Of a stretch of 64,000 nucleotides of DNA, positions 29,262 through 38,200 are shown piece after piece. The position numbers and the translations under genes were made by a program. The DNA lies in NCBI RefSeq assembly GCF_000003815.2, contig NC_049991.1:8704630-8768629 (forward strand), read 5' to 3'. The stretch comes from Branchiostoma floridae (lineage: Eukaryota > Chordata > Leptocardii > Amphioxiformes > Branchiostomatidae). A model generated the notes under the pieces. It searched no databases and was not told the DNA's origin. It was given only the letters and a program-made list of their open reading frames with translations. How positions within the stretch are numbered: the first letter of the stretch is position 1; each line of letters opens with the position of its first letter.

Positions 29262-32200
29262 CTAGATGCTGATGGCGTTTGGAACAAGCTTTGGATCCAG
29301 GTAGTCATAAGGCTGGAAACGCTGTGCTGAGTTGTCACGTGCAATGTTGTTTGCGAGAGCATCTAAATCCTGATTGAACCTGAAATAAAAGAAAAAAAAC
29401 ACATTTGATATGCAACTAGATTTTCAATTAATATACGATTATGTGCATAGAATCAAACAGGGCGTTATCATTATAGCCTGGAAATGGAATCCAGCCTTGT
29501 TTAATAAGCTTTGGTTTCCTCCCGAAAATCGCTACTAGCTAAAAAGGCTGGATCCTAGACTATTCTGATTATATACTAGTCAACGACGCTGTTAGGTCAC
29601 TACGAAAGGTATAATAATCCTTATTGACACAAAAAAACTTTCGTGAGGTCTTCTACGTCTGTTATATACATGTATACATGCATTGTACAAACAGGGGTGA
29701 CATAGGAGTAACAATATCTGAATATATCAACATGCCGATGTTATGTCGATGAAACACTGGAAAACGGTCATAAAATGTTTTGATTCATTTACCTCTTGCA
29801 GGATCGTCGTTTCTGTCTAAACAATCCTACTTATGTCCAAACATTTTGACAGATATCAATTGCTTCTACAATGACTACTTGCAATTACCCGGAACCACAT
29901 GGGCTGGAAAACATTTCCTCATTTCATAACTTCCAAGTAAAGTATTTTTATTTACCTTTACTGTTATCCTTACCTTTTATTGTGGCGACATATTAAGTGT
30001 GTCCGGCTGTACATTGCAACTAAATGTTGCGACGAAAAACAGAAACATTCAATACCTTTGCACGAACTGCAGCACTTGGGGACCTTCTAGGTATGGAACA
30101 AGGAAGTTTCCCAAAGGCCTTGTTGCTCGCTCACTGAGGACGTCCGTCAGAAGGTTGATCTCAGCAGTTTTGCTCTTTCCGGGAAGGGCATTCAGGATAT
30201 CCTGTTCTGTCAGGACATCCTGTGGAAAAACACATTCATAAACCATCAGCGAATTTAGATGCGTTTCCTCATGTACGTGTGTACCTACGTACATGTATAG
30301 TAGTATAAGGATAAGTTGTTGATAAGAATAATGCACATTACAATTGAAAACTAGAGTTCGGGGACCTCATACCTCCATGAAATATTTATTGCTTTTTTGT
30401 GGATGGTATGTATGTTTATAGTCGGTTGTATTTGAGAGTAATGGTTATATAATATAAATGTTATGGGAAAGTAGTGGTGTATTTATTTAAGGACACAGAG
30501 GATGTCCATCTGATTAGTAATTATCAAAATGTGACACTTAATTGTGTAATGTGCATTTAAGAGGTCGACGGCATATGGTAGCGTGGTGTTCCTTAAGCTT
30601 GATGTTTGGCATTTAAAATGTCTGAGGTTGTCAGCATTATTGAGGTTCGACTATGTGCGGTTACATGTCGAACATAGAGCGGTCACCCTATATATGTGCC
30701 TCAGAGCTGTGTGGTGGGAGGAAGTTGGGAAACTCAGAAAGAAGAAGGGATGTGGCCAACTTTAGTCAGATGGTGATTTGATTTTCCACCAATATGTCAT
30801 AACATCAACTGTTCACACGGTACAAAAACGAGATGCACACTTTCCTCTGACAGCCCTACACCAACTGTAAGATGAATACTTGGCGCCAACCCCGTCTGCT
30901 AAAAAAACAAGTACCATTGGCTACGAAAGAGACAACTAACAACTGTCCCTTATCGTAACAAAATCAGAACATCTGTGTCGCCCATAAAACTTCTGACACC
31001 CAACCCAGATGAGAGGACCTAATGGCATTTTAAACAGCTGTCACCTCACCATCTGCTTGGAGCTAAGCCCATTAACAAACACATAAAGCACGATGCCTGT
31101 ACCAATATATCTCAAATTTAGGGGTGATTTCTGATATTATTACATCGATCATAACGACAGATACGGCTCCCAAAATCTCATCGATTCGAGCTTTCATCAC
31201 ACCCCACCAACACAACAAGTATGAAACCAATCCATCTAGCCGTTCTTGAGTAATCATCTACACAGACAGAGACACATAACAGAAAATATAACCTCCATTC
31301 CATGACATTTCATGGAGGTAACAAGCAAAATACATCAGAGGTGCTCTGAAGGTACGTGTTTTAAGGGGCACGAGTTTTGCTTTTAAGTCATTACAAAATT
31401 TATGATTCTCGTTCAAATACCTCATCGTCATTTGCCAGTGGAAGAAACTAAGAAAACGTGTTAAAAGATATTAGCCTCATGCCTCTTGAAGCACTATATA
31501 ACCTCCTTGACTGGACAAAGTATAGTTAGACTTAAAACTGTTTGGGACCAATGAATGTAGTACTGTCTGGGACCAATGAATGTAGTGTTTGAGTCTGTGG
31601 TTAGTGGTTTTCCACGACAAAACTCATATTGGCACTGTACATGTACCACATTTAACCAGCCTCTGAAGCAAGGTTTTGTGTAACACAGACTACTAGTTTG
31701 TGTCATTGAATGACCTTATTCCTGGGCGGGTTTCCTTCTAACATGAGCGGCATGTTGGGCACGAAGCCGTACTGGTCCCACTGCATGAAGTTGACGGCTG
31801 CGTGCTGCACGCTGCTGGTGAAGATGACGGAGGTGACGGTTTGGATCAGCTGATCAAGGTTAGAGAATTGTCCATTTCCAGGAATTCCCTGCGTGTGATT
31901 TGAATGGAATCATTATGAAAGCTCCAACATAAGAATTGGGGGTAAGGATAACTGAGAAACCGGTAATTCAGTACACGTCACTTTCAGAAAGTGTGACGTG
32001 AGCACTGGGTCAAAGGTGTTGTGAAGTTTGTACCGGCCCCCGACACTGTTCGGTGACGGTTGACGTGTAAATATATTCTTTTGAATGACGAAGCTTCAGC
32101 AAAGAGTCATTTTCTTGAAGGAAAAAAAAACACCAGCATGACCAAAGCACTAAGTTAAGATAAATCATCATACATCTTAATTAACAACATATCTTTCAGT

Positions 32201-35200: not shown

Positions 35201-38200
35201 GAAGACACGGAAAGTGATATTCCTAGCAAAATAATCAATTGTCCTTTATCACATTTAAAATGGTTGTGACGTATGTATCTTTAGAGGTTTTTATTTACTA
35301 ACAGTTACGCGTTGACATTATTATCTTCGTCAAGAAGGTTATATTTTGGGTAGAAAATTTTTCTGTGTCACAATATGTAGGTCAATCGCATATAACTCGA
35401 GCAGCTGGATGTGTGGATGGAATTTAATGATATTTGGTATTTGAGTAGCGTTTAGAGGAACGGAGGTGTTGTTCGAAAATGGTTCACCTGGCACTTTTCG
35501 TCGGCATTGCAGCGGGAGAAGTGTGTGCGCGTGTGCGGTTGCGAACAAGATAACTCTAGACTCTTTGGATCTTTTTCAATGATATTTGGTAGTTAGTTAG
35601 GGGTTGGTAAACCAAAGGTCAGGTTCGATGATGGGCATCCTTGCGACAAGTTGGGTACTGCAGCGGAGCGTCAAAGTTGGCGCTAAAATTATCCTCAAGT
35701 GGCAGGTTGATGATTTTTGACTAGTGGATACATCTTTGGGCAGGGAGGAAGTCATGCAAGTTTGCCCCCCCCCCCCCCCATGGTGGCTTGTTTGGAACTG
35801 CAGCCTCTGATTTCCTTAATTTCAGTCGACTTTGGACGAGAATAACTCGAGAAGATGTTGACAGATCGTCATGATTTTTTTGGTATGCAGATAGCCTGAG
35901 TGGAGACCTACATAATGAGGTACTAATTATGCAAATTAACAGCTGATTTGCATAATTAATGAGGAAAGTTTATAAATCCACTGCATTCCATGGTAGGACT
36001 TTCAAACTTGTCACATATGTAACTGAGAAAGAAAGAACTGTCAATAGATATTAATGTTATTTGGTATTTGAGTAGCGGTTAGAGGAACGGAGGTGTTGTG
36101 TTAGAATTTAGTTTATCTACATGTATTCAGACCACATTTATTCATCTCATGTAATTAGTCATTCTTTTCTTGCAATTAGCCCAATGGGCATGAATTTGCA
36201 ATAAACTTTATTATTAATTATGCAGATGGCATCCTCATTTGCAAAGTTAATGAGAAAATGTAATAATTCTATTTCATACTTACAGCATTATGACGCTTGG
36301 TGAACATTATTAGAAATAAATCATGCGAATTTCATTTATGTAATGAAATGCTAATTATGTTAATCAGGTGCTTATTTACATAATTGATGAAGAAAGTCTA
36401 CAAATCCCCTACATTTTAGGGTAAGACCTGATTTCGGTAAAAAAAATGGCGTGGTGTGGGTCTGTCGTCTGTCAAGAGCATAAATTGAGAAGGTGTGAAC
36501 TTAGGAAGTACCTATTGTGGAAAGGAAGGTCAAGTTCCAAAATGGTTTTCCTACCGTTTACCTACTGTACTGCAGCGTCTGTGTATGTATGTGTGTTTTT
36601 TAATTTGTTTGTGGACAACACTACCCGAGGTTAGTTGGGATGGATAAGATGGAACTTCCAACCGCTGCAAACACACGTTCATGCAGTCCGTTGCTTTCGG
36701 AATAGGTACTCTTAAGGAATACATGAATGAAACCTGAAAGTCTTGAATAAAGGCGTGATTATTTGGCGAAGGTATGTGTTCGTGGAACTCTAGTTGATTA
36801 AGCAATACAATCTGTTCGCCTTGCGTTACGGTGGATCGCGGGTAAATACCAAATACATACAAATGGTGTCATGGTACGAGCTACTTTCTCTTCATAGAGC
36901 TCAGCACCTGGGGCAGAGCATGGACTTTGAACGAACACGCACACACACACACACACACACACNNNNNNNNNNNNNNNNNNNNNNNNNNNNNNNNNNNNNN
37001 NNNNNNNNNNNNNNNNNNNNNNNNNNNNNNNNNNNNNNNNNNNNNNNNNNNNNNNNNNNNNNTGATCAGTGACTTCAGAGCAAGCCTATACAAGCAACAA
37101 CATCAAGTATCAAAGCCTGGGTACATTTTGATTAAACGAATCTTTTATATATTAGTCAAAACACGCCCCAATGAAAACGAATCTATCATATTTTCGTTAA
37201 AAACTGCAATGTATAAAAATGGTGACGTGCCAGTGTATCAAATGTAACTACATTTGTTGTTTTTGTATTTAATTATGTATGCTGTTATCAACTTATCGCT
37301 TTGTATTTGTATACATATATGAATGGTCATAATTGAGAAAATATTACAAATTCACTATTTGATTGGTATGCTTGATTTAATTGACGTATCAGTATAGCAA
37401 TGTATCTCACTCATTGATGGCAAACAGGTAGATGAAGTGCGGTTGCATCAGACGGAGAATCGGGTGGGCCGGCGCGAGGTTCTGGAAGGCCGTCAGTGCG
37501 AGAGCCTCAACCAGCAGATGGGTAAATCCTGTGTAGAGCACAAAGGTTCATGTTACATTTACTAGTATTATAATTCTTTCCTAGATATAACAAAAATGTA
37601 TGACTGTATCCTACAGGGTGCATGCGCATGAAGCATTTGCTGTCCGTCATGTTCATCAATTTGGTTAAACCAAGTAGATTTGAATCTGTAGCTGCAGATG
37701 TGATTACAATCACATAATTGTTAGTCTCCAAGTAGACCCTACAGTGCCATAAGATAGTATCAGAGCCCGTTTGACTCCTTTGGCCGGCTATACTCTTTGG
37801 CCAGCTTTGATTCTATCTTATGGCACCGTAGGGTCTGCTTGGAGACTAATATTTGTGATATCAAACGCATACGCTATTTTACGTAAAGAGTTATTCACAT
37901 TTCTCGAATCAAGCACAACAGATTTCAAGAGACTCGATGCTAGAGACAGATTTGTATATATATATATATATTTAGAAGTCACAATATAATGCAAAAATGT
38001 AATTGTAGTATGTCAAGGACTGCTTTGTTATTAGAAAGAATACCGAAACTAATGATTACCCTACTCCATTGTATAAGTTAGACCTTATTATGTTAATTAG
38101 GATGCTTTATTCTATGCCCCAATTCTGTACCTTGTGTAGTAGTTGTTGCCATAAATTGCACCGTGTACACTTGTCGTGCAAGTTCTCTCTGTGTCTGCGT

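Follow-up and report, generated by a model that had tools for sequence, protein, structure and literature searches.

We analysed a stretch of 64,000 nucleotides of the Branchiostoma floridae genome (contig NC_049991.1, positions 8,704,630 to 8,768,629 of the forward strand; hereafter, the window), which contains five members of a repeat family, E1 to E5. The elements are almost certainly non-autonomous rolling-circle transposons of the Helitron2/Helentron type: the family presents a terminal 5′ repeat within a hairpin, a subterminal 3′ repeat, a weak palindrome ending in CTCTAG, a TT insertion site and thousands of copies. The main sequence classes of the family differ at both ends together, and the matching between the two ends exceeds chance at the family level. 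Taken as a whole, the best explanation is probably that of Helitron2/Helentron-type elements whose ends pair, with matched ends being favoured in the subfamilies that spread. For a direct role of the pairing itself, the balance tips only slightly in favour.

Matched ends in the sampled elements

The search of the genome (513 Mb, 431 contigs) with a pattern of the 3′ terminus, in which the end repeat was left free, gave 3,240 matches (1,611 + 1,629), while the reversed control gave none (0 + 0). No match to the 3′ end was found in the viral contigs scanned. We examined 44 elements: the first 40 of the 100 listed 3′ ends, from contig C1, each with 4.5 kb of upstream sequence, and four elements of the window (E5, which lacks a 5′ end, was excluded). 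The 5′ end was assigned by a rule asking for TT, then A or G, and a short stem (5 of 6), and fit to the 3′ end was not required. The rule assigned a 5′ end to 38/44 elements, leaving L044, L050, L059, L065, L069 and E4 of the window without one; these 38 rows are no test of the TT before the 5′ end or of the hairpin, since the rule demanded both. L041 and L077, for which the 5′ end of an inner element had been borrowed, were left out of the count, giving 36 elements. The 5′ end of L054 was placed at 3,799 bp, though a poorer candidate (TTAACTTTGTCA...) lies at about 440 bp, and the doubled start of L040 was trimmed by 6 bases before counting.

Among these 36 elements, the 5′ repeat and the 3′ repeat agreed at 12/12 positions in 20, at 11/12 in 13, at 10/12 in one and at 7/12 in two. 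Complementarity between the subterminal 3′ repeat and the 5′ repeat thus extends to at least 10 of 12 positions in 34 of the 36. The original prediction, made from the window alone, held that the two ends change together between subfamilies, and this holds for own end pairs drawn genome-wide. Indeed, classes A, A2 and D carry TACCTCCATGAAA at both ends, class C carries TACCTTCGCCAA and class B TACCTTTGCCA; one element, L075, is an exception, with a C-type 5′ end and a B-type 3′ end. The mean agreement of the 10 distinct end pairs was 10.7, vs 8.84 with shuffled partners, and 10.7 was reached in 33 of 20,000 shuffles, a figure that gives no probability for independent events because the rows are related by descent.

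The two ends also go together in their placement along the contigs. A C-type 3′ end lay downstream on the same strand, at 25 kb or less, for 31 of the 89 C-type 5′ ends in the listed range; for 29 of these the distance was 5 kb or less. As decoys for the same 89 ends, 3′ ends on the upstream side gave 3 (25 kb) and 1 (5 kb), and 3′ ends on the other strand 1 and 1. For the 34 C-type 5′ ends in the range of all three lists, the partner within 5 kb downstream was of type C in 11 cases and of type B in one, with B-type 3′ ends being commoner than C-type ones (628 vs 231). When the range was widened to 25 kb, a second B partner appeared, behind a nearer C.

Computed with DNA parameters, the 5′ hairpins (5′ repeat included) were more stable than shuffled sequences in 5/5 types, with z-scores from −2.5 to −6.9. 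The predicted end-to-end duplex was in turn more stable than the 5′ hairpin in all five types (−15.8 to −18.0 vs −4.6 to −10.2 kcal/mol). Duplexes predicted for mixed ends reached −6.3 to −8.6 kcal/mol between the ATG and the GCC classes, and −10.9 and −11.7 kcal/mol between B and C.

Window copies, termini and insertion site

The sequence ACTAGAGTT is present in five exact copies in the window, at 30350 (+), 33969 (+), 42374 (+), 36794 (−) and 49862 (−). The original prediction had recognised it as a start common to the family, overlooking the copy at 42374; the sharing is real, but the supposed start is actually the 3′ end, ACTAGAGTT being the reverse complement of the 3′ terminus CTCTAG|TT. 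The polarity had therefore been reversed: the 5′ end is the hairpin, TT|ACCTCC..., which in E1 lies at 31291–31319. A hairpin end starting with TT|ACC, TT|ATC or TT|GCC is present in four of the five window elements, and in four the 3′ end repeat lies 19–20 nt inside the 3′ terminus.

The clearest copy is E1, a 969 bp non-autonomous Helitron2/Helentron-type element of subfamily A at 30351–31319 on the minus strand, with TT at both flanks. Its 5′ end repeat (TACCTCCATGAAAT) lies within the hairpin ACCTCCATGAAATGTCATGGAATGGAGGT (31291–31319, minus strand; DNA fold −6.3 kcal/mol, z −2.5), and its 3′ end repeat, ATTTCATGGAGGTA, is found at 30370–30383 on the same strand. It is followed by an imperfect palindrome and the terminus, GAGGTCCCCGAACTCTAG (30351–30368, minus strand; stability not above shuffles), and then by TT. 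The two repeats agree at 14/14 positions and none of 20,000 random window pairs scored as high, bearing out the complementarity first proposed for 30352–31321. The 3′ terminus was fixed by comparing E1 with E5 (42375–43430, minus strand), a copy of the E1 family at another site in which the 3′ end is as in E1 and the 5′ end is missing: the common sequence runs to AACTAGAGTT and the flanks differ. About 160 bp of E5 (window positions 43028–43189) are absent from E1, owing either to an insertion into E5 or to a deletion from E1.

Two elements of the GCC class lie in inverted orientation to each other, both with TT at both flanks. E2 (33970–35154, minus strand, 1185 bp) has its 5′ hairpin, ATCTTCGCCAAGAAGAT, at 35138–35154 and its 3′ end repeat, TTTGGCGAAGGTA, at 33990–34002, both on the minus strand; E3 (35323–36793, plus strand, 1471 bp) has its 5′ hairpin, ATCTTCGTCAAGAAGGT, at 35323–35339 and the same 3′ end repeat, TTTGGCGAAGGTA, at 36762–36774, both on the plus strand. 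The region 33968–36794 had originally been read as a pair of matched ends. The complementarity is real; it compares, however, one 3′ end with another, that of E2 with that of E3, and these complement each other because the two ends are similar and lie in inverted orientation. Within each element the two ends still agree, at 11/12 positions in E2 and at 10/12 in E3. Taken alone, the E2 pair was equalled by 0.2% of random window pairs, a significance that is understated because its 5′ sequence in this test lacked the TT, starting one base into the element; the E3 pair was equalled by 3.5%. The last element, E4 (49097–49861, plus strand), is a relative of subfamily A, failed the 5′-end rule and looks like a decayed member of the family. 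Its own end pair, for which the 5′ sequence again began one base inside the element, was at chance level (47% of random window pairs scored as high); this is the third, weaker pair first noted at 49095–49862.

The boundaries are also visible outside the window. The 3′ flank of the 40 C1 elements was TT in 38, TC in one and CT in one, a flank that the search did not demand. At the other side, where the 5′ boundary was taken from the end of inter-copy homology, TT preceded ACC in 10/10 D-type rows, and all ten 5′ ends so defined begin with (T)T-ACCTCC, placing the inverted repeat at the extreme 5′ end. Furthermore, the true termini could be read from a filled and an empty site, as the original prediction had proposed: L042 is nested in L041, and the filled site, TATATTT|ACC..CTCTAG|TTTACCC, corresponds in unfilled relatives to TATATTTTACCC, showing a TT-flanked insertion. 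The two extra Ts at the filled site fit either a TT duplication or Ts borne by the element. These ends do not have the traits of Helitron1, the 5′ end being ACC rather than TC and the flanks TT, not A/T.

Some observations concern insertions within the family. L042 in L041, and L076, are insertions into the TTTT that directly follows the 5′ hairpin of another family copy, possibly a hot spot of self-insertion. L046, L072 and L076 have two 5′ ends about 310–360 bp apart upstream of a single 3′ end, as might be expected if one element had inserted into another or been truncated inside it.

Among the other features of the window, a reading frame with a Mos1 transposase helix-turn-helix domain (PF17906) lies at 27655–28098 (+), a long C2H2 zinc-finger reading frame at 54038–55357 (−), and overlapping long hairpins based on TGCCCCAAACCGTGCCT form a cluster at 41274–41354. 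A lipoxygenase exon was also recognised.

Long relatives, proposed end pairing and its rivals

The Helitron_like_N domain (PF14214) has 79 matches in the genome. They are found on several contigs, and many of them sit within long open reading frames (six of 1,022 amino acids, others of 1,900–2,500); these long frames may reflect recent activity of more than one Helitron group. Three C–C end pairs were longer than 3 kb: PF14214 lies inside those of 11.4 kb (contig C5, 20609866–20621310) and 20.7 kb (contig C4, 13083287–13104020), and not in that of 4.6 kb. The match is on the element's strand in the 11.4 kb pair, in an open frame of 2,569 amino acids, and on the opposite strand in the 20.7 kb pair. 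Decoy pairs of 4.1, 5.2 and 11.4 kb contained PF14214 in 0/3 cases, and the 15 kb on the wrong side of each C-type 3′ end contained none of the 35 PF14214 matches in the listed range. Judged by place, long relatives of this one class, C, appear to enclose the Helitron replication-initiator domain and are candidate autonomous elements. On contig C2, PF14214 is also matched 13 kb upstream of a B-type 3′ end that has no known 5′ partner. The sampled C1 loci contain 26 reading frames of at least 140 amino acids.

A mechanism in which the ends pair could run as follows. A Rep-helicase supplied by a long relative would nick the 5′ end and unwind one strand, and the displaced 5′ end would fold as a hairpin. 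When the 3′ end is unwound in turn, the 3′ repeat could pair with the 5′ repeat, opening the hairpin and joining both ends for closure. Mobility of a source element mismatched at one end would be reduced until its other end changed too, and the subfamilies that spread would therefore carry matched ends.

Several results weigh against this explanation. The matched changes that could be independent number three at most, the candidates being the ATG block vs the GCC block, a change of C–G to T–A separating C from B, and position 13 in D. In the last case, L042, L062, L063 and L066 combine an A2-type 5′ base with the new 3′ base, giving a mismatch at position 13, while seven other D members have a new 5′ end that fits the new 3′ base. 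In the tree of element bodies, D copies with this new 5′ type fall into two clades, divided by forks of modest support, so that the ends may have been swapped as modules; parallel change is possible as well. L047 and L048 agree at only 7/12 positions, for 58 of the 89 listed C-type 5′ ends no exact 3′ end of type C occurs within 25 kb, and mixed duplexes within the ATG block (A, A2, D) are predicted at −15.2 to −16.4 kcal/mol, near those of the own ends. The 3′ palindrome is short and imperfect, and no more stable than shuffles in 4/4 types. Beyond 5 kb, correctly ordered C–C pairs and wrong-order decoys are equally frequent (2 each); the case for long C elements thus rests on the protein domain that they enclose. 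Finally, sequence alone cannot separate the pairing of the ends from one protein reading both.

This last alternative deserves attention, and we consider it quite possible, if short of probable. One Rep-helicase would bind the same sequence at both ends, so that the ends track the preference of the protein and need not pair. Two sites read by one protein are expected to resemble each other, and differences between the classes involve several positions together, as if each class followed its own protein; the correlation between ends and the placement data fit this explanation as well. On the other hand, the two repeats are oppositely oriented and the 5′ copy also forms the hairpin that end pairing would open; in class B the ends agree at 11/12 positions while the hairpin arm has a T–T mismatch. 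Neither point is decisive. We regard it as improbable that copy-correction, by template switching or gene conversion, keeps the end repeats alike without selection. Both ends are complementary on one displaced strand, so that copying by fold-back could occur, but such a process should also copy the neighbouring bases, and the agreement between ends ceases after 11–14 bases in the main types; moreover, the mismatched L047 and L048, and likewise L042, L062, L063 and L066, persist. Either process would give the pattern observed, and the claim that pairing is required for mobility, as the original prediction had it, does not follow.

A cut-and-paste transposon with terminal inverted repeats (TIRs) is a quite different proposal, taking 33968–36794 as one element of 2.8 kb. 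It draws on ACTAGAGTT being inverted at both ends of this region, over 47 bp at 91%. We rejected this candidate and give the proposal almost no credence, as each half has its own TT-flanked hairpin end and in 10/10 D-type copies elsewhere homology ends at a hairpin that lies about 1.1 kb away from the CTCTAG end, rather than at another such end. The family also departs from classical TIR elements and miniature inverted-repeat transposable elements in that the 3′ repeat is 19–20 nt internal and, in the rows compared, the 5′ ends lack the outer 3′ sequence.

Returning to the explanation by pairing ends, a stronger version can be put forward tentatively, though we rather doubt it. The end repeats would act as a base-pairing address: pairing between the single strands of the 5′ and 3′ ends, and not a protein, would pick the ends to be joined, and in this way keep the subfamilies apart. 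As a second and equally speculative part of the same proposal, subfamilies would pass through mismatched intermediates, such as L042, L062, L063 and L066, to newly matched pairs.

Relation to known elements and significance

Matching between the ends is a known trait of Helitron2/Helentron elements, found again here: in the parts of the literature that we draw on, differing matched repeats, compensatory mutations and a pairing model are already in print (PMC2374699, PMC3627910). Bao and Jurka (2013) described in Helitron2 asymmetric terminal inverted repeats, with the 5′ copy terminal in a hairpin and the 3′ copy about 20–30 bp from the 3′ end, before a hairpin; they reported compensatory mutations in two mosquito elements, and proposed that the 5′ hairpin is destroyed when the 5′ and 3′ repeats pair, which determines where replication ends (PMC3627910). 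The amphioxus elements resemble Helitron2, as presented there, in their asymmetric end repeats, 5′ hairpin and subterminal 3′ copy; they differ in host, in the weak 3′ palindrome and in the flank, which is TT here, whereas the insertion site of the algal example is between TTTT and T or C (PMC3627910).

Helentrons and the non-autonomous HINEs were described by Thomas and others (PMC4067079). For DINE-1 elements, Table 1 of Yang and Barbash reports repeats that differ among Drosophila species; the text puts the number of different repeats at five for 11 species, with D. willistoni having three types, and the authors argue that the structure, kept despite sequence change, matters (PMC2374699). 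Oyster elements have the same parts with element-specific changes (PMC7492417), and in Fusarium joined ends were reported for one subgroup (PMC5148889). According to the sections used, our elements share with Helentrons, HINEs and DINE-1 subterminal repeats of 11–15 bp, an inner complementary 5′ repeat, a 3′ palindrome (short and imperfect here) and insertion at TT (PMC4067079, PMC2374699, PMC7492417), and with DINE-1 and the oyster elements a GTCY-like microsatellite behind the 5′ repeat (PMC2374699, PMC7492417). The 3′ repeat lies closer to the terminus here, at 19–20 bp, vs about 38–60 bp in what is given for mite elements. With Helitron1, as characterised in the text cited, they share a CTAG 3′ end that fits CTRR and, judged by place, the Helitron_like_N domain in candidate long relatives, but they have no 5′ TC, use a TT and not an AT site, and carry end repeats and a 5′ hairpin (PMC4067079). 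The search for Branchiostoma Helentrons returned only a fungal paper by title, with Repbase outside the search; one for amphioxus Helitrons returned four papers, and such elements may well have been described already.

In the cited literature, as far as the portions used here go, end recognition by Helitron2/Helentron elements is still a proposal. If the repeats did act as an address, the thousands of copies in this genome would amount to a natural mutagenesis of that code. The pairing idea is testable in this species, whose genome carries several subfamilies that differ in their matched ends, thousands of copies, and candidate autonomous relatives of class C.

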